From a virus, in IMG/VR virus record IMGVR_UViG_3300044951_000456, positions 1 through 21,508 of that record: a DNA stretch of 21,508 bases; one strand, 5' to 3'. The position numbers and the translations under genes are program-made. The notes beneath the pieces are model-generated. The model ran no database searches, was not told where the DNA came from, and saw only the letters and a program-made list of their open reading frames with translations. Positions 6,427-19,322 of this stretch are shown here, piece by piece (the stretch's first letter is position 1; the number at the start of each line of letters is the position of its first letter).

Positions 6427-8931
6427 TTATCCCATAGGTTGTGGTTGTGGTGGTGCTGGGGGCATAGATGGTGGTTGTTGAGGCGCTGGTGCAGGTGGTG
6501 CTCCCTGTGGTCCTGCTTGTGTTATTGGAGCCGCAGGAGGCGTAGCTTGCATGGCGTTTTGTGCGTTTATTTGTTGAGTAGCCATATCCAACCCTTTAAA
6601 CAAACCTTGGACCTTAGCGTCTTCGCCTTGAACCAGTAACTTAGCTTCATTGTTTAGCATAGCTATTTCTTTACTAGCGTCTATCTTCTTAAGCTCAATC
6701 TCTTTCTTATCATTAAGCTCTTGTTGTTTCAGCTGTAGTTCTTTTTGCTGCATCATCACTACAGGGTCTTGCGCTTGCTGTTGGGCAGTTTTTTGAGCTT
6801 GCTCAGCTTGGTTAGCTTGTATTAATTGTTTAGCAGCGTCAGCAGATAGTTTAGCTAGTTGTATCTCCATCTCTGGACTTAACTTAGCATCTTCTGGAGG
6901 AAGAGTAGTACCTAACTGAGTCTCTATACCACGGCGATATTGGAAGCCAACGTGTTCCATAATATGAGCCATTAACGCTTGTTTTATCACTGATGCTTGA
7001 GGATTTTGTCCCATAGCCGCTGCTATCTTAGGATCGTCCAACATGCTCTGGTGTACCGCTAAATGGGCGTCTTGGTCTTGTTCTATAAAGGCTTTGACAG
7101 GCTTAGCTTTAAGAATATTTACATTCTCTGTGACAGGGTCTGTCGGTACTTGGTCATCTTCAACAATAACAATCTTGTCTGCATCTTTAATACCCATAAC
7201 TTCTAACATTTGACGATGTAGTACAGGCAGGTTGTATATCTGTGGAGATTGTTGTGCTAACTGAATAGCCGCTTGGTACTGAATAATACGTTGCGCCATA
7301 GTACTGGCGTTAGGATCAGAGACTGGGATAATATCAACTTTATCATAATCTTCTTTCTTAGCTGTTGCAGGTGCATCAAAGTCCGGTAGGTAGTCATAAG
7401 CAGGAGCTGTATAGTCTCTTACCAACGCTGCAATCAACTTAAACTCTTGCTCCATTGACGCATGAACACGAGCTTGTACGGCTGACATTACTTTAAGAGT
7501 TCTTTCTAGGATAGCCAGTGTGGTGCCTACTGGTGCCTCACCGTTCATGTTCTCTAGTTTAACATCAGCAACTGCAGCTAATCTACGGCCTTCTTCTACT
7601 ACGTTTTGGAGCAGTTGGAAAAGAGTTGCACTTGGTTCCTTATATGGAAGCGGTAGAATATTGTCTTTAATGTTAGCAGATGGTACGTCAACATCTCTCC
7701 ACTCACCGGGCATAATGGGTGTGTCGTCACCTTTAATCCTAAGACCTCTAGACTTCAGACCACCGGGTAAATTAGATAAAGTCCCCGCATCAATTAACTG
7801 TCTTACTATAGAAGTCGCAGACTTAGCAAAGCCACCAATAAGGTGAATAAGCCCATAGCCATAAGCTCCGAAACCGGGGATATAAGTATACTGTACAAAG
7901 TGTTGCTTAGCTTGTTTAAGAGGGTCATGTTCATCCCAGTTGCGCCTAATAGAAAGAATCTCTTGAGTACTGCTCTCAATAGTAACGATGTACGGCAGGG
8001 CTATGCCCGTCTCTTCTTCAGTCTCGTCATCCATGTCTTCAAAGCCAGCTAGGTCTAACTCAACCTGCATCTCTAAAAGTTTGTATCGGTTGTCATAAGT
8101 TGCTTTGTAACCACTAGACTCATCTTTGCGCTGTTGCACATCGTCTAGGTCTTTAGATGGTTCGCCTAAGTCTACATCTCTGTAGAACTCAGCGTATTGT
8201 AGCTTCTTAATGTCGTTCTTGGTCTTACGCATCACATGGGTGAGGCGCTCTGCTGTACGTGCATCTGATGCACCGTAGGGGATATAAAGGTCTTCTGCAG
8301 GTACAAACATACTTACCTGACGGTTCATAGAAGGGTCAAAATACACTTTCTTAAAGGAAGCACCTGCTAAAGCTAGTGACCACAACATTTTCTCGTGTTC
8401 AGGTCTAAACTCTGTCATCTTCTCAGTTAACTGGTAATTCATGTCTTCTACAACACGTTTAGCCGCTTTCTGAGTATCAGGGTCGTCTTTACCAATTATC
8501 TTGGCTTTTACAGGTCCTTGTGCCGGAAATGTCTCGGAGATCATCTCTGATTGAAAACGTATCGCCGCTTCTGTTAGCATGGGGTGGTATACACCACAGG
8601 CACCTTGCCAAGGTTCAGAGCGTTCTTCAATCTTTAAACCGAGTAAATCTAACCCATCTATGTAGGTAGTTTCCCAGTCTTTTCGGGCGTTCTTGTCATT
8701 TTCAAAGTCATCTAGCAAATCAGAGACCAACGCTGTCATATCTGACTCATCCATGTACTCTGCAAGGTTTGCATAAAAACCCGGCTCTTGTTCCATCTCT
8801 ACTTCAACTTCAGTATCAATAGGGTCCATAGGATCACCTATATTAATCTCTACAGGAGCGTCATCATCTTCCGCTAAAAACGGACTCTGGGGTTGCATAG
8901 CTTTAAAAATGTTGTTTGGGACTGCAGACAT
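6427..8931 (-). CDS. Portal protein (P22 gp1-like)
   Basis: An 834-aa portal subunit, which would form the dodecameric ring at the packaging vertex and dock the terminase. It has an acidic N-terminus (EDDDAPVEINIGDPMDP), a segment WETTYIDGLDLLGLKIEERS, then PWQGACGVYHPMLTEAAIRF, and a long helical crown/clip region including SATSIVRQLIDAGTLSNLPG. From about residue 655 there is a Gln/Lys-rich coiled coil, then a Pro/Gln-rich tail. It is somewhat longer than P22 gp1 because of this tail. Residues about 453-468 (AVADVKLENMNGEAPV) are encoded by 50 bp that recur exactly in the early gene at 11526. It follows terL with AGGA as the ribosome-binding site. Confidence 0.92.
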   Translation of the reverse strand: MSAVPNNIFKAMQPQSPFLAEDDDAPVEINIGDPMDPIDTEVEVEMEQEPGFYANLAEYMDESDMTALVSDLLDDFENDKNARKDWETTYIDGLDLLGLKIEERSEPWQGACGVYHPMLTEAAIRFQSEMISETFPAQGPVKAKIIGKDDPDTQKAAKRVVEDMNYQLTEKMTEFRPEHEKMLWSLALAGASFKKVYFDPSMNRQVSMFVPAEDLYIPYGASDARTAERLTHVMRKTKNDIKKLQYAEFYRDVDLGEPSKDLDDVQQRKDESSGYKATYDNRYKLLEMQVELDLAGFEDMDDETEEETGIALPYIVTIESSTQEILSIRRNWDEHDPLKQAKQHFVQYTYIPGFGAYGYGLIHLIGGFAKSATSIVRQLIDAGTLSNLPGGLKSRGLRIKGDDTPIMPGEWRDVDVPSANIKDNILPLPYKEPSATLFQLLQNVVEEGRRLAAVADVKLENMNGEAPVGTTLAILERTLKVMSAVQARVHASMEQEFKLIAALVRDYTAPAYDYLPDFDAPATAKKEDYDKVDIIPVSDPNASTMAQRIIQYQAAIQLAQQSPQIYNLPVLHRQMLEVMGIKDADKIVIVEDDQVPTDPVTENVNILKAKPVKAFIEQDQDAHLAVHQSMLDDPKIAAAMGQNPQASVIKQALMAHIMEHVGFQYRRGIETQLGTTLPPEDAKLSPEMEIQLAKLSADAAKQLIQANQAEQAQKTAQQQAQDPVVMMQQKELQLKQQELNDKKEIELKKIDASKEIAMLNNEAKLLVQGEDAKVQGLFKGLDMATQQINAQNAMQATPPAAPITQAGPQGAPPAPAPQQPPSMPPAPPQPQPMG
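7527..7576 (-). repeat. 50-bp segment duplicated in inverted orientation at 11999-12048
   Basis: The leftward-strand sequence of these 50 bp is identical to the rightward strand at 11999-12048, with mismatches immediately on both sides. It encodes AVADVKLENMNGEAPV in the same frame in the portal gene and in the early gene. Codon choice is identical throughout, so this is copied DNA and not protein convergence. Confidence 0.97.
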
Positions 8932-11421: not shown

Positions 11422-11450
11422 TTGACATTGCCTGACAATAGGCGTAGAAT
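11422..11450 (+). promoter_or_regulatory. Early promoter P1
   Basis: TTGACA, 17-bp spacer, TAGAAT. It matches the sigma70 consensus at 11 of 12 positions and drives the first rightward gene. The predicted start near 11457 leaves a leader of about 70 nt that contains a B-type hairpin. Confidence 0.85.
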
Positions 11451-11458
11451 AGTAACCA

Positions 11459-11498
11459 GTCGAAGCAATACCGCTTAGACCGTAGTATCTGATACTAC
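11459..11498 (+). promoter_or_regulatory. Leader L1: A-like hairpin and B element
   Basis: An imperfect stem, GTCGAAGC/GCTTAGAC (11459-11466 and 11473-11480), is followed by the 17-bp dyad GTAGTATCTGATACTAC (11482-11498). The B element is the same as at 15107-15123 and, with one central change, at 14660-14676. There is no C hairpin; AT-rich sequence leads to the start codon. Confidence 0.75.
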
Positions 11499-11525: not shown

Positions 11526-12206
11526 ATGAAAACAATTAAAACTGCTGTAAAAACTGCTGTAAAAACTGCTGTATTAGTAGCAACTGAAGCGCAGAATGTG
11601 GCTAGTATTAAGGTGTTAGATGATGCCATTAACGTATTTACCCGTATCGCGAATAACATAGATCATGATATATTTCATACTTATTGTGTAACCTTTCGTA
11701 GGGGACTGGTAGGCGTTGAAGTAGATAAAAATGGGTATTATGTTATCCCCAAAACTCAAAACGATTATATTGACTTGCTTATTGATAAAAATAAAACTGG
11801 TTATAGATCTACACGCCAAGCCGTTAAAGCCAGTATAGTTGCATGCTTCTATCTTGGCGTAAATGGCACTAATACCACAGCCTACCTAAATAGAGCAAGG
11901 CAAGGTAAAACGCACCTTGAAGCTTTAACCGAATGCGAGTGGGCAATAATCAAAAGAGATTGCAACAAGGCTAGAGACGCCAAGAAAAAGGCTAAAAATG
12001 CAGTTGCTGATGTTAAACTAGAGAACATGAACGGTGAGGCACCAGTAGCAGTTGAGACCGTAGCAGTTAAATCATCGGTATCGCCAAGCCAAGACCGTAT
12101 AAACAAGGCATACAATGATATTATAGCCAAACTGTCGGAAAATGACATGTTGGTACTTATCGAAATGTTAGAAACTCACTTATTAGAAGCTAGCCCCGAA
12201 GCATAA
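11526..12206 (+). CDS. Early protein of unknown function with a portal-derived insert
   Basis: A 226-aa protein with no family I recognise. The N-terminus has three KTAV repeats encoded by a 12-bp DNA repeat. A middle region (IDHDIFHTYCVTFRRGLVGV, then VIPKTQNDYIDLLID) precedes a basic segment (KRDCNKARDAKKKAKN). Then comes AVADVKLENMNGEAPV, encoded by 50 bp identical to the portal gene. The end is an acidic helix (LSENDMLVLIEMLETHLLE). It is the first rightward gene, with its own promoter P1, a B-type leader, AGGA before the ATG and a terminator behind it. It is therefore a single-gene early unit, probably abundant. A regulator or host-takeover protein is conceivable but unproven. Confidence 0.8.
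   Translation: MKTIKTAVKTAVKTAVLVATEAQNVASIKVLDDAINVFTRIANNIDHDIFHTYCVTFRRGLVGVEVDKNGYYVIPKTQNDYIDLLIDKNKTGYRSTRQAVKASIVACFYLGVNGTNTTAYLNRARQGKTHLEALTECEWAIIKRDCNKARDAKKKAKNAVADVKLENMNGEAPVAVETVAVKSSVSPSQDRINKAYNDIIAKLSENDMLVLIEMLETHLLEASPEA
11538..11572 (+). repeat. 12-bp tandem repeat encoding KTAV
   Basis: Three near-identical 12-bp units (AAAAACTGCTGT) at the start of the gene give KTAVKTAVKTAV. The repeat is in frame, so it can expand or contract without a frameshift. Confidence 0.9.
11999..12048 (+). repeat. 50-bp copy of the portal-gene segment
   Basis: Exact match, on the opposite strand, to 7527-7576. Both copies are read in the same frame (residues about 159-174 here, AVADVKLENMNGEAPV). 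The flanking bases differ immediately at both ends. The pair forms a 50-bp inverted repeat about 4.4 kb apart. Confidence 0.97.
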
Positions 12207-12696: not shown

Positions 12697-13971
12697 ATGG
12701 AAACCCAATCCAACACCAAAAACTTGCCAATAACTACAAACCGATACAAAAATGCCTTAGAACTTGCTCACAGACTAAACAGGATATTTGCAAATGAGTA
12801 CGCTTGTTATAGATATGCAGTTAAGCACAACACAACCCAAAATAGGTTGGATAAGCAACAAAAGGCGCAAGCTGACCTAGCCAAGCAGATTGCAGATAAA
12901 GACAGACGCAACAAAGTAATAGATGCTTTATACGACCTTGCCAACTATACGTACATAAACAAGAGCACTGGTGTAACATCAACCCAACCCAAGTACACCA
13001 TTAAGAGAGCTGTGAAGTCGGCGTTAAGCCCTAAAAAAGCACCCGTAGTATGTGATACTACGCAAACCCAACAACCCCTATTAACCCAAGAACTACTGCA
13101 ACACCACCTGTATTACGACCAAGAGCTAGGCACGTTTGAATGGAATGAAGGATCACTGGCAGGTACTATAGTTAAGTTCACAGCTACCCTTGCTAAGCCG
13201 ATGAAGCCCCAGAACCCTTACACATTGCCAATTAAACCTCGTAATCACAGACCCTCACATGCAGGATACAGCGTAGTATCAATGGAAACCTACCTAACAG
13301 AGGTAGAGAGGGCTAAAAGCAGTAAAATAGGTGCTAAAAATGCTAGATTTGCCTATGCTAGGCAGTATCTTATAAGAAACCCAGACAAAACATCGGCACT
13401 AGCGACAATAAAGGTGACTTATTACGTGTTAAGTCATAAAGAATCGCAACAATACCCTAGTATTACCCTAAAAGTAGGCACAACAAGACGAAAATACCCA
13501 GCCCAGCACTTAGCATACCTATACATGGGTGCAGGAGGTGACTGGAACTACAATACAGGGCAACCAAACGGCTTAGATAACGCATACAGGGTAAATACAA
13601 CAACTGCTCCACAAGGACTAAGGCTGTACTGCCACAAGACGAACAAGCCCAAACGCATGCCGTGTAGAGACGGCAACCCGCTCAACTTAAAGTGGGATAA
13701 CATTAAACCTGACCCTATCAGTACTGCATCTATCACTAAAGACCCGACAGTGAAGAAACCACCTCGCATACTCACCTGCAAACGTGTGTACAGCTACAAG
13801 AGGAACATAAAGGTAATAAAAGGGCACTGGGTTGTGCATAACATAGGCACAGATGCGTTCTACGCATGGTCATTAGATGATGCGGAGCGTGAATTTAGTA
13901 GGAGGCTGGCGAGAGTTAAAGGAACTAAGCAGAAATTGAGAAACGGAGACATATTAGTTTACAAGACGTAA
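12697..13971 (+). CDS. 424-aa protein with expanded HNH/AP2-like architecture
   Basis: A basic protein of uncertain function. Residues 1-115 are helical and unlike anything I recognise. From about 133 it parallels the two HNH-AP2 proteins in this window. YYDQELGTFEW plus SLAG (139-155) matches YDQETGIFTW...SIAG. KYPAQHLAYLYMG (266-278) matches YLAHRLAWFFMYG. CHKTN...NPLNLKWDNI (312-336) matches DHIN...ICNLRLDSN, with extra residues between. KGHWVVHNI...AEREFSRRL (375-404) resembles the AP2-like GKWTAQI...AHAAYLRSK segment. It may be an active HNH nuclease or a domesticated DNA-binding relative. P2 drives it, with AGGA before the ATG. A B element lies inside the gene at 13045-13061. Confidence 0.75.
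   Translation: METQSNTKNLPITTNRYKNALELAHRLNRIFANEYACYRYAVKHNTTQNRLDKQQKAQADLAKQIADKDRRNKVIDALYDLANYTYINKSTGVTSTQPKYTIKRAVKSALSPKKAPVVCDTTQTQQPLLTQELLQHHLYYDQELGTFEWNEGSLAGTIVKFTATLAKPMKPQNPYTLPIKPRNHRPSHAGYSVVSMETYLTEVERAKSSKIGAKNARFAYARQYLIRNPDKTSALATIKVTYYVLSHKESQQYPSITLKVGTTRRKYPAQHLAYLYMGAGGDWNYNTGQPNGLDNAYRVNTTTAPQGLRLYCHKTNKPKRMPCRDGNPLNLKWDNIKPDPISTASITKDPTVKKPPRILTCKRVYSYKRNIKVIKGHWVVHNIGTDAFYAWSLDDAEREFSRRLARVKGTKQKLRNGDILVYKT
13045..13061 (+). repeat. B-type dyad inside a coding sequence
   Basis: GTAGTATGTGATACTAC is the leader B element with one change in its central triplet. Here it encodes VVCDTT (residues 117-122 of the 424-aa protein). The preceding CC and the C/A-rich following bases also resemble the leader context. 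It sits exactly between the unrecognised N-terminal part and the HNH-like part. Confidence 0.85.
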
Positions 13972-14078: not shown

Positions 14079-14567
14079 ATGCAAAACATCAAAGACTTCC
14101 TATCATACGATCAAGAAACAGGTATCTTCACTTGGGTTAAAAAACCTAACCGCAATATAAAACTTGGGAGCATAGCTGGGCGTAAACGTAATGATGGGTA
14201 TGTGGAGGTAAAATACAACAAAAAACACTACTTAGCACATAGACTAGCATGGTTTTTTATGTACGGGGAAGTGCCTTTATATAACATAGACCACATCAAC
14301 GAGATTAAAATAGATAACCGTATATGCAATCTTAGATTAGATAGTAATGGGGAAAATACGCATAACATTAGTAAGCCTAGAGTAGACAATACATCAGGGT
14401 ATAGAGGAGCTTATTGGCATAAACAAAGGGGTAAATGGACAGCACAAATACGGGTAAAAGGAGTTCTTATACATTTAGGTATGTTTAACCTACCAGAGGA
14501 GGCACATGCGGCTTACCTACGTTCAAAGAGGGAGAACCACCCATTTTGGATAGAAAAAACTAATTAA
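14079..14567 (+). CDS. Free-standing HNH homing endonuclease with AP2-like domain (copy 1)
   Basis: A 162-aa HNH endonuclease. Its N-terminal motif is FLSYDQETGIFTW (7-19), followed by YLAHRLAW (51-58), the HNH core YNIDHINEIKIDNRICNLRL (H72, N80, N84), and a C-terminal AP2-like DNA-binding domain (about 107-150: GYRGAYWHKQRGKWTAQI). Such enzymes nick or cut cognate DNA to spread their own gene. I chose ATG 14079 over an upstream in-frame TTG at 14034 because it has an AGAGG site upstream and begins like copy 2 (MQNIKDFLSYD versus MLDIKDYLSYD). It lies between the 424-aa gene and promoter P3, with no sign of intron structure. Confidence 0.92.
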   Translation: MQNIKDFLSYDQETGIFTWVKKPNRNIKLGSIAGRKRNDGYVEVKYNKKHYLAHRLAWFFMYGEVPLYNIDHINEIKIDNRICNLRLDSNGENTHNISKPRVDNTSGYRGAYWHKQRGKWTAQIRVKGVLIHLGMFNLPEEAHAAYLRSKRENHPFWIEKTN

Positions 14568-14576
14568 ATCAAACAC

Positions 14577-14605
14577 TTGACAAACGCTTCAAAAGGGCGT
14601 ATAAT
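14577..14605 (+). promoter_or_regulatory. Early promoter P3
   Basis: A perfect sigma70 promoter: TTGACA, 17 bp, TATAAT. The -10 context GCGTATAATAT and the following CTGTAGTTT are shared with P4 and P5, so the promoter is part of a copied cassette. Confidence 0.93.
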
Positions 14606-14640
14606 ATGTACTGTAGTTTGAAGAAAGAGAAGAAAGATTC

Positions 14641-14711
14641 ACCGCCTCAAGCGGTAGCCGTAGTATCAGATACTACACCCAGATAGCTAAGTTAGAGCAA
14701 CCTAACTTAGC
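14641..14711 (+). promoter_or_regulatory. Leader L3: hairpins A, B and C complete
   Basis: Hairpin A is ACCGC-CTCAA-GCGGT (14641-14655). B is GTAGTATCAGATACTAC (14660-14676). C is GCTAAGTTAG with loop AGCAAC and CTAACTTAGC (14686-14711). The leader is about 130 nt long and ends at AGGA before the ATG at 14739. The same order and spacing recur at 16473-16541 and 17530-17604. Confidence 0.88.
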
Positions 14712-14738
14712 ACCAACAACCTTAATAGGAATACGACC

Positions 14739-15110
14739 ATGATGTTTAACCCACAAATTTATACCTCCTTAGTAGCATTAAGAGAAGCATCAATAGTAGG
14801 AGCACACAGCGACACCACCATCGACAATATAGATGTCTTTGGTTGGTTTGAAGGCAACGCTTACGCTTGTAAGTACATTTATGATTATGTATCTGAGGCT
14901 GAGTATGCAGTAGCAGGGGATTGCATTGATATAGTAGAAGAGGGAGAGGATCAGGAAGCTGTATCAGCATTAAGGAAGATCGTAAGGGATAACGATAAAG
15001 ACTGGGAGGTTATTCATATGGAAGCAGACCAACTGCTGTGTAGCCTACTTGAGGATAAGTATCCTCAGTTAGTAAAGGACTTTAAGTCCCTAAACAAATG
15101 GTATGCGTAG
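14739..15110 (+). CDS. Acidic early protein of unknown function, 123 aa
   Basis: A small acidic soluble protein (many D and E, for example IDIVEEGEDQEAVSALRKIV). I recognise no family. Two consecutive ATG codons open the frame, 14739 and 14742; AGGA at 14728-14731 fits either. It is the first gene behind promoter P3 and a full A-B-C leader. Its TAG stop lies inside the next B element (15107-15123), so stop and hairpin are physically merged. Acidic small early proteins often act as inhibitors or DNA mimics, but that is only a possibility here. Confidence 0.75.
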   Translation: MMFNPQIYTSLVALREASIVGAHSDTTIDNIDVFGWFEGNAYACKYIYDYVSEAEYAVAGDCIDIVEEGEDQEAVSALRKIVRDNDKDWEVIHMEADQLLCSLLEDKYPQLVKDFKSLNKWYA

Positions 15111-15163
15111 TATCTGATACTACACCCCAACCAAATAGCTAAGTTAGAGCAACCTAACTTAGC
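15107..15163 (+). promoter_or_regulatory. Intercistronic leader L3': B and C without promoter
   Basis: The B element GTAGTATCTGATACTAC (15107-15123) contains the TAG stop of the preceding gene. Hairpin C (15138-15163, loop AGCAAC) follows, then AATAGGAATAG before the ATG at 15194. No -35/-10 is seen, so the element works in the middle of a transcript. This argues for an RNA-level or translational role. Confidence 0.85.
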
Positions 15164-15193
15164 ACCAAAAACAACTTAATAGGAATAGACATC

Positions 15194-15799
15194 ATGCAAT
15201 ATAAAGAACTATCAGACGAAGCAAAAGAACACGCCTTTAGACGGCACGTAGAATATGCACAATCAAATGATTATTACTGGTGGGAGACAGTAATGGAGGA
15301 CTGGGTAGATAGACTAAGCGCAGTAGGTATATCAACATCATTAGAACAGATGCACTTCTCAGGCTTTGGTAGTCAAGGCGATGGTGCATGTTTCACTGGG
15401 TCAATAAACCTTAAAGAATTTCTTGAGGCACACCCTGATCTAAAGAAAGAACACGCCAAGTTATATATGGCTGTAATACCGTTTGATACAAGAGGTGCGG
15501 CTTGTGAATACTACGATCTGGAACTTACAAGACATGGGTCTACTAACTATAGTCACGAGAAATCAGTACATCTAGGGTCTTGGGACTTGAACATACTACC
15601 TGAGTATGACACAGAAGATGGTGAGGACTATGAGCGGCTAATTATAGATGCTGAAGCGGATATTGAGTGGCAGTGCCGTGAGTATATGAAAGAGATATAC
15701 CGTGATTTGGAGAAGGAGTATGAGTATATGCAGTCATTAGATTGTTTTTTAGATAGCGTGGATTACCAAGACTTCAATGAAGATGGAGAACTAGCATGA
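15194..15799 (+). CDS. Conserved phage protein of the LSDEAKE...FSGFGSQGDGA type
   Basis: A 201-aa acidic protein. The N-terminus YKELSDEAKEHAFRRHVEY is followed by YYWWETVMEDWVDRLSAVGI and the signature MHFSGFGSQGDGACFTGSI (about 54-72). I recall this pattern from a widespread phage family that is sometimes labelled as the antitoxin of a toxin-antitoxin stability system; that label is weakly founded. No toxin-like partner is obvious next to it. It is the second gene behind P3, preceded by its own B-C leader. Its TGA overlaps the ATG of the next small gene (ATGA). Confidence 0.75.
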   Translation: MQYKELSDEAKEHAFRRHVEYAQSNDYYWWETVMEDWVDRLSAVGISTSLEQMHFSGFGSQGDGACFTGSINLKEFLEAHPDLKKEHAKLYMAVIPFDTRGAACEYYDLELTRHGSTNYSHEKSVHLGSWDLNILPEYDTEDGEDYERLIIDAEADIEWQCREYMKEIYRDLEKEYEYMQSLDCFLDSVDYQDFNEDGELA

Positions 15800-15921
15800 T
15801 TTATTCAGCACAGATAAACAACCACGGTAATGTAATTGTATGTAAAGGGACAGATGTAAGGAATAGTTATCGTATAATAGCAACAGGCACGTATCAGGAG
15901 ATGCTTGCCTTAAAGAAGTAA
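15796..15921 (+). CDS. 41-aa small protein coupled to the upstream gene
   Basis: An ATGA overlap starts a short frame of 41 codons plus TAA. The product begins MIYSAQINNHGNVIVCKGTD and ends in a helical, basic tail (YQEMLALKK). The strand-like first half suggests a compact fold, but no family is recognised. The overlap with the upstream stop and the codon use similar to its neighbours support translation. It is too short for certainty. Confidence 0.55.
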   Translation: MIYSAQINNHGNVIVCKGTDVRNSYRIIATGTYQEMLALKK

Positions 15922-15935
15922 TTAAATGACCCTAG

Positions 15936-16017
15936 CTGGGAGGGAGCGCAAGCTATTCCCCAGACAGCCGTATATCGGAGTGTGGGCTGTGTCAACAACA
16001 CCCGAGGTAGTAGGTGT
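15936..16017 (+). other. Structured intergenic RNA candidate, three hairpins
   Basis: Three adjacent pairings are visible in a 188-bp gap. CTGGG/CCCAG (15936-15963) encloses AGC-GCAA-GCT with a GNRA loop. ACAGCC/GGCTGT spans 15964-15990. ACACC/GGTGT spans 15998-16017. An alternative pairing GTAGTAG (16007-16013)/CTACTAC (16061-16067) resembles a stretched B element, followed by the leader-like ACACCCAACCC. It may be a diverged leader or a small RNA. Confidence 0.4.
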
Positions 16018-16109
16018 GAATACCTTTTACAAGCAATAAGTGTATGATTCCATTTGCATGCTACTACACCCAACCCAACCCAACCTATAACACACAACAG
16101 GATAAGAAC

Positions 16110-16412
16110 ATGAGCATAACCAACGAACTAAGATTAGAAAGAGAACTAAAAGCTAGAAGCGATGCAATGAACAGAGTATTGCTAGGGCACGAGGAAGACA
16201 TCCAAGAACTGCATGATAAGGTGGAGTTTTACAGGAGAGTAGTTGCCAATCTAATGGCACTGATTATATTACTGGGTATCTTTGGTGGCTATGCGTACTA
16301 CTTAAAAGATACATCATTGCCTGTGCCTATGGCATGTGAGCAGGAGAAGTCTAAGTACAGTAAGAAAGGTGATGACAGCTATACCATTAAAGAATACACA
16401 TTAAGAAAATGA
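16110..16412 (+). CDS. Single-pass membrane protein with N-terminal coiled coil, 100 aa
   Basis: Residues 1-42 form a charged helix (LRLERELKARSDAMNRVLLG, then EEDIQELHDKVEFYRR). One hydrophobic span follows at about 44-65 (VVANLMALIILLGIFGGYAY), then a charged tail with one cysteine. I recognise no family; superinfection exclusion, membrane anchoring or lysis accessory roles are all possible. I chose ATG 16110 because AGGA lies 7-8 bp upstream. An in-frame upstream ATG at 16044 would add an unlikely Tyr/Pro/Gln stretch and has no ribosome-binding site. Confidence 0.7.
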   Translation: MSITNELRLERELKARSDAMNRVLLGHEEDIQELHDKVEFYRRVVANLMALIILLGIFGGYAYYLKDTSLPVPMACEQEKSKYSKKGDDSYTIKEYTLRK

Positions 16413-16421
16413 CGTAACCCC

Positions 16422-16450
16422 TTGACATATAAGGGAAAGTAGCGTATAAT
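16422..16450 (+). promoter_or_regulatory. Early promoter P4
   Basis: TTGACA, 17 bp, TATAAT, a perfect consensus. From GCGTATAATATACACTGTAG through TTTAAAGATTCACC it is identical to P5, far beyond what promoter function needs. It is a duplicated regulatory cassette. Confidence 0.93.
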
Positions 16451-16472
16451 ATACACTGTAGTTTAAAGATTC

Positions 16473-16541
16473 ACCCCCTTAAGGGGTTGGCAACCGTAGT
16501 ATCAATACTACACCGAGCTAAGTTAGAGCAACCTAACTTAG
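16473..16541 (+). promoter_or_regulatory. Leader L4: hairpins A, B and C
   Basis: Hairpin A is ACCCC-CTTAA-GGGGT (16473-16487). B is GTAGTATCAATACTAC (16496-16511), one base shorter at the centre. C is CTAAGTTAG with loop AGCAAC and CTAACTTAG (16518-16541). The changed pair in A relative to L3 and L5 is compensated on the other side of the stem. Confidence 0.88.
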
Positions 16542-16558
16542 GTAACAGGATTCATTTC

Positions 16559-16574
16559 GGGGTACACGTACCCC
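16559..16574 (+). other. Extra leader hairpin D
   Basis: GGGGTACACGTACCCC forms a stem of up to 7 bp with a very small loop (6 bp with loop CACG), 14 bp upstream of the GGAG ribosome-binding site of the DUF3150-like gene. It is present only in leader L4. Confidence 0.6.
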
Positions 16575-16597
16575 ACTTTTAAACTTTGGAGCACGAC

Positions 16598-17464
16598 ATG
16601 ACACAAACAAACGTAAAATCATTAGCATCATCAGCAATGTTAGTAAGCCTCAACATCAGCCTGTGGACAGCTCGTAAGCTGGATAAAAAGGTATCTAATG
16701 ATGTGGACATCAGCAACAGCACCATGACTAAGGCTGGTAATTACCACAAGAACTTGTTAGCAGGTGATGACTCACTTGCGGCAATCGGTAAGGTGGCAGG
16801 GGTTATTAGAACGTACCACATGACACAGACCTCACCTTGGAATGACAATGGCGATAGGTTGCTAACGACTGCTCAGTTCTTCATCTACAAGAAAGAGATG
16901 GCACGGCTTGAACAGCAATACTGGGACTTGGTTAGTACATTCATTGCAGGATACAGTATGCGTATTAGTGCCGCCGCATTTCAGTTAGGTTCGTTGTTTA
17001 ACAGGGACGAGTACCCTGACGTAGAGCAGGTGACGGATAAGTTCGGTTTTGTTGTGCGATACACACCAGTACCAGAGGTGGGTGATTGGAGAGTAGACAT
17101 AGGCAACGAGGGGCTTAAGGAAGTACAAGAGCAGTATGCCCTCATGTATGAGGCTAACATTGAGAAAGTACATGCTGATGCATACGACAGGCTGTACAAG
17201 ATACTGACTCAGCTTAGCTTTGGGTTGCGTACTAATGAAGACGGGTCAAAAGGTAAGGTGTTTGATAGTGTGCTTGATAACACTAAGGAGCTGTGTGGTT
17301 TGCTTAGTAGCTTCAACATCAAGGGCGACACACAGTTGGAGGCTATGCGTATCAAGTTAGAGGACAGCTTTACAGGCATTGATGCTCAGGATATTAAGAA
17401 GTCCGACTATATAAGGATCACGCTTAAGCGTGATGTGGATTCAATGTTAGATAAGTGGAACTAG
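16598..17464 (+). CDS. DUF3150-like protein (partner of MoxR/VWA module)
   Basis: A 288-aa helical protein that I recognise as DUF3150-like from its start (SSAMLVSLNISLWTARKLDK), the VSNDVD...KAGNYHKNLLAG segment (about 32-51) and the general length. Its family typically lies beside CobS-like/MoxR AAA+ ATPases and VWA proteins, as it does here. It has no visible catalytic motif and may be an adaptor, or the substrate of the ATPase. I chose ATG 16598 (GGAG 7 bp upstream) over an in-frame TTG at 16586, whose bases form part of that site. It has its own promoter P4 and a full A-B-C leader, separate from the ATPase unit. Confidence 0.8.
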   Translation: MTQTNVKSLASSAMLVSLNISLWTARKLDKKVSNDVDISNSTMTKAGNYHKNLLAGDDSLAAIGKVAGVIRTYHMTQTSPWNDNGDRLLTTAQFFIYKKEMARLEQQYWDLVSTFIAGYSMRISAAAFQLGSLFNRDEYPDVEQVTDKFGFVVRYTPVPEVGDWRVDIGNEGLKEVQEQYALMYEANIEKVHADAYDRLYKILTQLSFGLRTNEDGSKGKVFDSVLDNTKELCGLLSSFNIKGDTQLEAMRIKLEDSFTGIDAQDIKKSDYIRITLKRDVDSMLDKWN

Positions 17465-17478
17465 GAGTAGGCGAGAGC

Positions 17479-17507
17479 TTGACAAAGGAGGACAACTAGC
17501 GTATAAT
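17479..17507 (+). promoter_or_regulatory. Early promoter P5
   Basis: TTGACA, 17 bp, TATAAT, a perfect consensus. The spacer has GGAGG but no start codon follows it. Downstream it is identical to P4 through ATTCACC. Confidence 0.93.
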
Positions 17508-17529
17508 ATACACTGTAGTTTAAAGATTC

Positions 17530-17604
17530 ACCACCTCAAGTGGTCGGCAACCGTAGTATCAATACTACACCCAACCAAAGCTAAGTTAGATTAACCTAAC
17601 TTAG
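17530..17604 (+). promoter_or_regulatory. Leader L5: hairpins A, B and C
   Basis: Hairpin A is ACCAC-CTCAA-GTGGT (17530-17544). B is GTAGTATCAATACTAC (17553-17568). C has the invariant CTAAGTTAG/CTAACTTAG stem but loop ATTAAC (17581-17604). AGGA follows before the ATG at 17622. Confidence 0.88.
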
Positions 17605-17621
17605 TACAACAGGAAAAGACA

Positions 17622-18698
17622 ATGAAAAAACCATATAGTTCAATCAACATGCAAGAAACCATTAAGTTAATCAGCGCAGTAGGTGAGCGGCTAACCGTCC
17701 TTGTACAGGGTGAGATGGGGATTGGCAAGTCATCAATCCTTAAGGCTCTAGCAAAGAGCCACCCCAACCATATCCCATGCTACATAGACATAACAACAAA
17801 AGATGTGGGCGACTTCCTTGTACCACAGATACGTACCATAGACGGTACACCAGTATGCTCATTCATTCCCAATGAGGAGTTCGGCTTTCACTTAGGTAAG
17901 CCCTTGATCGTAATGCTTGACGAGGTAGGTAAGGCAGGTAAAGCGGTAATGAACGCTTGTCTACGGCTTATGCTAGAGCGTAAGCTAGGTATCCATGAAC
18001 TACCAGAGGGCAGTATAGTCTTTGCAACTACTAACCTAGCAGTTGAGGGTATAGGTGATAACTTGCCGCCCCATGCACGTAATAGGGTTTGTGTGGTTAA
18101 GATGTGCAAGCCTACTGCTGAGCAATGGCGTTGGGATTATGCACAGAACGCAGGTATCGACCCTGTAGTGATAGCGACAGCTATTGAGTATCCATCTATG
18201 TTAGCCAGCTTCGAGGACTATGAACGTCCTGACATGAATGAGTATATCAATGACCCTCGTGTACCTAGAGCGGCGTTCGTTACACCACGTTCGTTAGAGA
18301 AAGCAAGCGACATACTTAAGCTGTGCCGTGAGATGCCTGAAGAAGTGTTGACCCATGCGCTGTTCGGTGTGATAGGTGAGCGGGCTACTATGGATATGAT
18401 GAACATACTTAAGCTGGATAACACCATGCCAGCATGGTCAGAGATCATTAACAAGCCTGACACTACTATAGTACCACCCAACGGAGCGGCTATCTGTCTG
18501 GTAGTTAGCAAGGCGTTAAGTAATGTAGCTACTGATACGTTTGACAGTTGGATGACGTATTTAAATAGGTTGCCACGTGAGGCACAGGCTTTGTTTGCTA
18601 TGAGTGTGATGAGTGCCAATAGCCCTAAGCGTAACGTAGCAGTTACTAATAGGAAGTTCACTGAGTATGCCGTTTCGCAAGGTTACCTTTTCTCTTAG
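17622..18698 (+). CDS. MoxR/CobS-like AAA+ ATPase
   Basis: A 358-aa AAA+ protein. Walker A is GEMGIGKSS (30-38), Walker B is LIVMLDEVGKA (95-105, D100, E101), sensor 1 is FATTN (134-138) and the arginine finger region is HARNR (151-155). The pattern DITTKDVGDFLVPQ (56-69) after Walker A is typical of MoxR/CobS-type ATPases. The C-terminal third is helical. Such ATPases remodel partners together with VWA proteins, whose MIDAS contacts the client, as in cobalt and magnesium chelatases and MoxR chaperones. The VWA partner is encoded two genes on, with an HNH gene between. The gene is transcribed from P5 through a full A-B-C leader. Confidence 0.9.
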   Translation: MKKPYSSINMQETIKLISAVGERLTVLVQGEMGIGKSSILKALAKSHPNHIPCYIDITTKDVGDFLVPQIRTIDGTPVCSFIPNEEFGFHLGKPLIVMLDEVGKAGKAVMNACLRLMLERKLGIHELPEGSIVFATTNLAVEGIGDNLPPHARNRVCVVKMCKPTAEQWRWDYAQNAGIDPVVIATAIEYPSMLASFEDYERPDMNEYINDPRVPRAAFVTPRSLEKASDILKLCREMPEEVLTHALFGVIGERATMDMMNILKLDNTMPAWSEIINKPDTTIVPPNGAAICLVVSKALSNVATDTFDSWMTYLNRLPREAQALFAMSVMSANSPKRNVAVTNRKFTEYAVSQGYLFS

Positions 18699-18794: not shown

Positions 18795-19256
18795 ATGTTA
18801 GACATCAAAGACTATTTATCCTATGACCCTGAGACTGGACTATTTACTTGGGTAAGGAATACAGGTAGGCAGAATAAACTAAATAAAATAGCAGGACATA
18901 TAGCTAAAAATGGGTACGTGTATATCCAATATAAAACTAAGAGGTATTTAGCTCATAGACTAGCATGGTACTTCTATCATGGAATACCACCCCTATATTC
19001 TATAGATCACATCAATGAAGTTAAAGACGACAATAGAATATGCAATCTTAGATTAGATACTAACAAGGAGAACGGACAAAACAATAGTACTTGTAAAGGA
19101 ATGAGCTGGAGTACGACTAGAGGTAAATGGCAAGCAGCCATATCAATAAAAGGTGTAAATAAGTTCTTAGGTTACTACGATACACCAGAGGAGGCACGAG
19201 ATGTATATCTATGTGCTAAGAGAGAACATCACCCATTCTGGGTAGAGAGTAAATAA
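18795..19256 (+). CDS. Free-standing HNH homing endonuclease with AP2-like domain (copy 2)
   Basis: A 153-aa paralogue of the protein at 14079. It has the same motif order: DYLSYDPETGLFTW, YLAHRLAWYF, the HNH core YSIDHINEVKDDNRICNLRL (H72, N80, N84), a shorter AP2-like segment (about 102-141, GMSWSTTRGKWQAAI) and the same ending (HHPFWVE versus NHPFWIE). The two genes share a stretch of 22 identical bases at the NLRLD motif, so they are recent relatives. GGAGG precedes ATG 18795. It lies between the AAA+ ATPase gene and its VWA partner, so it probably invaded that module. Confidence 0.92.
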   Translation: MLDIKDYLSYDPETGLFTWVRNTGRQNKLNKIAGHIAKNGYVYIQYKTKRYLAHRLAWYFYHGIPPLYSIDHINEVKDDNRICNLRLDTNKENGQNNSTCKGMSWSTTRGKWQAAISIKGVNKFLGYYDTPEEARDVYLCAKREHHPFWVESK

Positions 19257-19272
19257 GGAACAGTTATCAGGC

Positions 19273-19322
19273 GTAGTACCATCGTACTACATATAAGGCT
19301 TCGCCCCTGCCTTTACAGGGGC
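19273..19322 (+). promoter_or_regulatory. Leader L6: B variant and GC-rich hairpin before the VWA gene
   Basis: GTAGTAC-CATC-GTACTAC (19273-19290) is a B element with a compensated pair change (T-A to C-G). GCCCCTG/CAGGGGC with loop CCTTTA (19303-19322) follows; it lacks a T run and is not a typical terminator. GGAG then precedes ATG 19342. No promoter is seen, so expression probably depends on read-through from P5 or from the HNH unit. Confidence 0.7.

Follow-up and report, generated by a model that had tools for sequence, protein, structure and literature searches.

The virus record IMGVR_UViG_3300044951_000456 of IMG/VR, analyzed here over its whole stretch of 21,508 nt (the window), carries three leaders in which a sigma-70 promoter is followed by three palindromic segments, A, B and C, in the same order. 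The locus raises the question of whether these segments form one leader element under selection for RNA structure, as the initial annotation of the sequence had proposed, or separate elements. The arrangement itself was present at all three leaders. Folding of the leaders was stronger than that of their dinucleotide shuffles (z -4.8, -2.6 and -3.5), and the three promoters match TTGACA-17-TATAAT at 12 of 12 positions, being the only ones of that quality between 10500 and 21508. The reading favored here, with modest confidence, is that two unrelated regulatory layers overlap: A as an RNA hairpin acting in cis, and B and C as genome-specific palindromic sites.

Relatives were gathered as 80 viral loci through the MoxR-like protein of the window and as ten through the C palindrome. 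A covariance model of hairpin A, built on an alignment of 19 sequences with 98.9% of the cells paired, gave strong scores in 24 of the 27 close records and matched none of the eight more distant ones. In IMG/VR it found 78 matches across 62 sources (28 distinct sequences, 29–46 bits), with one to four copies per record on the sense strand. The final alignment of 30 rows, including two helicase leaders added by hand, kept 98.7% of the stem cells paired, and four of the five pairs showed changes on both sides. Double-changed cells numbered 29, against a mean of 7.3 in shuffled data and 0–1 with slid partners. The exchange of G-C, C-G and A-T at one stem position, noticed earlier among the three copies of the window, is part of this strong covariation. 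As the stem covaries across relatives, A is, judged from the alignment, a real structured RNA element whose structure is under selection.

The consensus of A reads 5'-GNNUC, a 5-bp covarying stem around CWYAA, and NG-3', the loop being CUUAA, CUCAA or CAUAA. The near-invariant positions are G7, T10, C11, C17, A20, A21 and G28, and of these G7, U10, C11 and G28 are constant; with one base bulged out, C11 and G28 could make a sixth pair. In genome G004 the helicase gene is preceded by the loop CAUAA on a new stem, GCUUC/GAAGC, and in G016 and G017 this loop stands on ACUCC/GGAGU. Upstream of MoxR in L018 and L019 the leader reads GATTC-ACTCTC-GCCTTTGACT-GAGAGT-TGG, with the flanks of A kept but the stem lengthened and the loop 10 nt long, and is perhaps a diverged A. 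The 5' arm of A resembles the tail of 16S rRNA (TCACC.CCTTA), a likeness that was dropped, being absent from most relatives.

A search of Rfam 15 placed no family on A, B or C of the window at an expectation value (E) of 5 or below, nor on A in the relatives, in agreement with the earlier remark that no described element of this form was known. Neither the distant MoxR relatives nor five GenBank phages whose terminases are related gave a match to the model. Bacterial genomes gave 19 matches scattered over unrelated phyla, none of which was taken as real, the chance expectation being about 30 by our own estimate from 34 bits and 514 gigabases. A combined search for promoter and A gave no matches with a pattern that was overly strict.

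Position divides the copies of A into two groups. An ATG on the same strand, with a Shine-Dalgarno (SD) sequence and opening an open reading frame (ORF), lies within 220 nt of 72 of the 78 matches; for the remaining six, all promoter-linked, the script found no such ATG. Promoter-linked copies end 41–147 nt before the ATG. The 34 promoterless copies end 11–15 nt before it, most of them between the stop codon of a small gene and the gene of an SNF2 helicase, and in the relative G011 one adjoins the SD of a gene of the type found at 16598. Across the relatives A precedes the same few early genes, and as promoterless copies stand at gene starts, A goes with particular genes and not with promoters.

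According to the favored reading, the transcripts of these early genes and of the helicase gene would carry A in their untranslated part, before the coding sequence. A constant loop and constant flanks on an exchangeable stem suggest, as the simplest account, an RNA-binding protein that reads them. Such a protein, of either phage or host origin, would co-regulate the translation or decay of these messages and so define one small regulon; both the protein and the direction of its effect are postulated. By analogy, A may work like the operator hairpin of a phage mRNA, such as that of T4 gp43, which controls one gene and is read by a phage protein (PMC3014915). The promoterless copies resemble this operator in being hairpins near a ribosome-binding site with a conserved loop, but within one genome A stands in front of several genes.

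The palindromes behave differently from A. In relatives at least 72% identical, sigma-70 promoters are often followed by an A-type hairpin and then by a second hairpin that varies by genome; A is trailed by other palindromes or by none, and B and C recur without A. Because the second hairpin varies in this way, the leader is not one unit, and the proposal of a single three-hairpin element is not supported. The families include GTAGGACnnnGTCCTAC in G004 and G006, AGGATATACnGTATATCCT in G018 and G012, TCCGTACnnnnGTACGGA in G010 and G013, GGGTACnnGTACCC in G002, CTAAGTTATACnGTATAACTTAG in G008, and others besides, each with 4–11 copies per genome. At least three copies of one family were present in 24 of 59 distant loci and in none of the shuffled loci, and in five near-complete genomes every copy lies in the early region. 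At orthologous loci, before proteins 76–98% identical, the palindrome is swapped for the sequence of the other genome. The selection on RNA structure claimed for the whole leader should not be extended from A to B and C, whose sequence is replaced genome by genome.

An SD and start codon follow within 70 nt downstream of 80 of 141 palindromes (57%, against 22% at random), and other palindromes lie after a stop codon and before a terminator. A palindrome is also found inside a 424-aa ORF, where several relatives have one of their own; it falls within a variable linker in G002, G004, G008, G018 and the window, and near the N-terminus in G001, G003 and G005. The C-terminal part of this ORF (12697–13971 in the window) reads like a degenerate HNH type, with no Pfam match. 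In most families of L036–L080 and G002–G027 an inner AC-n(1-4)-GT is common and the outer arms differ; the shared inner part could reflect homologous binding proteins.

B and C would then be copies of palindromic repeat families private to each phage and spread over its early region, most likely as sites of a genome-specific regulator. Replacement at orthologous positions fits such sites better than a composite leader. The binding protein, and DNA as its target, are what we infer here, with a leaning only toward DNA.

Two candidates for the palindrome binder were rejected. A 230-aa protein of G008 (L141:13143-13835) joins a Cro/C1-type helix-turn-helix (HTH) to Sigma70 region 4; apart from weak, partial matches in three others it was found only in G008, G009 and G002, and it is 81% identical in G002, whose palindrome differs. 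The fast-evolving 424-aa ORF has no homologue in distant loci with palindromes and was set aside as a universal binder.

Several observations weigh against the two-layer reading. Promoter-linked copies of A are too far from the SD for simple blocking of the ribosome, which leaves room for a passive role in mRNA stability. In the clade of the window, the centre of B ranges between 2 and 4 bp, B has compensated as well as G-U variants, and its copies hold one orientation to transcription; all three points fit hairpins in RNA better than a DNA dyad of fixed form. No binding protein was identified for either layer, and the sole HTH candidate tested is 81% identical between genomes with different palindromes and missing from most.

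The strongest competitor, plausible but less probable than regulator sites on DNA, is that B and C form hairpins in the RNA and owe their identical arms to recent copying within each genome, with no binding site involved. Besides the varying centre, this alternative is favored by three compensated variant families, represented by the copy at 19273 that the initial annotation had already pointed out, TCCGTGC/GCACGGA of G013 and AGGTTATAC of G018, together with some G-U pairs in the sense strand. Extra pairs in the flanks also favor it, with 77 and 73 of 163 cases paired at the first two positions against 41 expected, but flank pairing is not in excess beyond these. In addition, distant families, such as that of L079, are fixed dyads of 16–17 bp with constant spacing and random centres, and L039 and L044 have asymmetric flanks in both orientations, which points to DNA. 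The tests of flank pairing and G-U asymmetry did not decide between DNA and RNA.

A more doubtful alternative treats A, B and C alike as passive hairpins of 5' untranslated or intercistronic regions, which guard or set mRNA ends against decay of the RNase E type, or shield the ribosome site, and need no specific protein. The location just upstream of the SD, in promoter-linked and intercistronic cases alike, would suit such a role, and in some leaders other hairpins occupy the same place (L008 4064, L014 5430). Stability alone, however, requires neither the loop CWYAA nor the flanks UC..G, which are kept in 30 sequences, and the palindrome arms are identical letter for letter within a genome, some of them inside ORFs or between stop codon and terminator.

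An antitermination signal, loading RNA polymerase from the early promoters, is improbable for A; the initial annotation had listed an antiterminator recruiter as one candidate role, beside protein binding, transcript stabilisation and a translation switch. A boxB hairpin has a 5-bp stem and a 5-nt, purine-rich loop. Hairpin A shares with the lambda-type boxB of nut sites the 5-bp stem, the pentaloop, and stem letters that change while the loop is kept; it is promoter-proximal in most leaders, and some 3 kb past the helicase copy there is a conserved intrinsic terminator. Its loop, however, is CWYAA, boxA in the window is not above chance (seven matches at two or fewer mismatches, 8.4 expected, none at A), and promoterless copies stand 11–15 nt before start codons. 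Downstream of the first A the window contains no intrinsic terminator, and in relatives the stretch from the first A as far as the distal terminator has none either. With neither intrinsic terminators between the A copies nor boxA, antitermination is unlikely, though conceivable at Rho-dependent sites. The put RNA of HK022, which acts in cis on RNA polymerase, is likewise a structured RNA downstream of phage early promoters and repeated in one genome, but it has about 70 nt and two stem-loops (PMC9378689), whereas A is a single 15-nt hairpin, occurs also promoterless beside start codons, and is the only one of the three kept across relatives.

Chance, or simple duplication of a leader in one genome, can practically be dismissed: three copies in one window could arise by duplication, but the model matched about two dozen further records at E 1e-6 to 1e-11, which covary among themselves.

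The palindromes have partial counterparts among described phage repeats. The 17-bp dyads of Cluster O (Corndog) share with GTAGGACnnnGTCCTAC of G004 and G006 the 7-3-7 form, invariant arms, a free centre and many positions in short intergenic gaps, but they number more than 30 throughout the genome with one sequence in all five phages (PMC4351075); here there are fewer copies, restricted to the early region, with a different sequence per relative. Cluster A stoperators are dispersed sites as well, and their sequence changes with the genome-specific regulator; they are asymmetric and have a known repressor (PMC6550527), whereas B and C are dyads, with asymmetric flanks only in L039 and L044, no repressor was found, and the one HTH candidate does not track the palindromes. 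The start-associated sequences (SAS) and extended SAS (ESAS) of Cluster K are inverted repeats just upstream of the start codons of non-structural genes (PMC3203893). B and C resemble ESAS in standing before start codons and differ in being perfect short dyads without a 13-bp start-associated sequence.

The features of the window are collected in Table 1. The B and C pair at 15107–15163, the B copies at 11482 and 13044 and the palindrome at 16559–16574 are additions to the initial annotation, whose C loops AGCAAC and ATTAAC were both present. The palindrome at 16559–16574 probably came in with the gene behind it. The product of that gene had been labeled DUF3150, for which Pfam and PHROGs gave no match at E 0.01 or below.

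Table 1. Promoters, hairpins, palindromes and genes of the early region of the window.
Feature	Position	Strand	Remarks
B palindrome	11482..11498	+	behind promoter 11422-11450 (11/12), no A
B palindrome	13044..13062	+	within 424-aa ORF
Sigma-70 promoter, leader 1	14577..14605	+	12/12 match
A, copy 1	14639..14657	+	stem 14641-14655 ACCGC/GCGGT, loop CUCAA, flanks UC..G; 39.5 bits
B palindrome	14660..14676	+	GTAGTATCAGATACTAC
C palindrome	14686..14711	+	GCTAAGTTAGAGCAACCTAACTTAGC
Gene behind leader 1	14739..15110	+	123 aa, unknown function; A also upstream in relatives
B palindrome	15107..15123	+	no promoter or A, between two genes
C palindrome	15138..15163	+	no promoter or A
Sigma-70 promoter, leader 2	16422..16450	+	12/12 match
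A, copy 2	16471..16489	+	stem 16473-16487 ACCCC/GGGGT, loop CUUAA; 45.7 bits
B palindrome	16496..16511	+	GTAGTATCAATACTAC, spacing one base shorter
C palindrome	16518..16541	+	
Palindrome	16559..16574	+	GGGGTACACGTACCCC, family of relative G002
Gene behind leader 2	16598..17464	+	288 aa; DUF3150 label unconfirmed
Sigma-70 promoter, leader 3	17479..17507	+	12/12 match
A, copy 3	17528..17546	+	stem 17530-17544 ACCAC/GTGGT, loop CUCAA; 39.6 bits
B palindrome	17553..17568	+	
C palindrome	17581..17604	+	loop ATTAAC
MoxR-like AAA ATPase gene	17622..18698	+	PHROG 1297
Compensated B variant	19273..19290	+	GTAGTAC-CATC-GTACTAC, before VWA/DUF2201 gene; same form in G003

The left half of the window carries the terminase and portal genes on its minus strand, and the early module lies to the right of them on the plus strand; GenBank phages gave no megablast match to the window. 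A 50-bp piece of the portal gene (7527–7576) recurs with 100% identity, inverted, at 11999–12048 in the early ORF 11526–12206. It has one match per relative, in the portal region where located, which suggests that the piece was recently copied into the early gene. Two HNH_3 genes (14079–14567 and 18795–19256, one with AP2), 71–75% alike in their DNA, are located between segments of the early operon and are likely homing endonucleases. At the left end, positions 1–253 consist of tandem 15/21-bp repeats coding on the minus strand for a low-complexity protein of the AAKAPAP type. Positions 15930–16009 gave a weak match to the Rfam family Proteo-phage-1 RNA (37.7 bits, gathering threshold 42, E 0.0011); their DNA is 94–99% conserved in four close relatives, none of which matched the family at E 0.5 or below, and a literature search on Proteo-phage-1 found no paper.

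As a general warning, the covariation of one hairpin within a genome should not be extended to its neighbours. As a structured RNA motif of phages, hairpin A is new and absent from Rfam, although its general kind is known. It picks out a few co-controlled genes and offers a bait for finding an RNA-binding regulator. More surprising, perhaps, is that the palindromes switch between relatives. The palindromes form a natural series in which whole sets of sites switch sequence at conserved positions among close relatives, which makes the joint change of a regulator and all its sites testable. Tentatively, the early region may hold two codes: A, common to the group and recognized by a conserved RNA-binding regulator, and a palindrome alphabet private to each lineage, which would replace it at all orthologous sites, those within coding sequence included, together with its own regulator. 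If this were true, close phage relatives would be insulated from each other's control.

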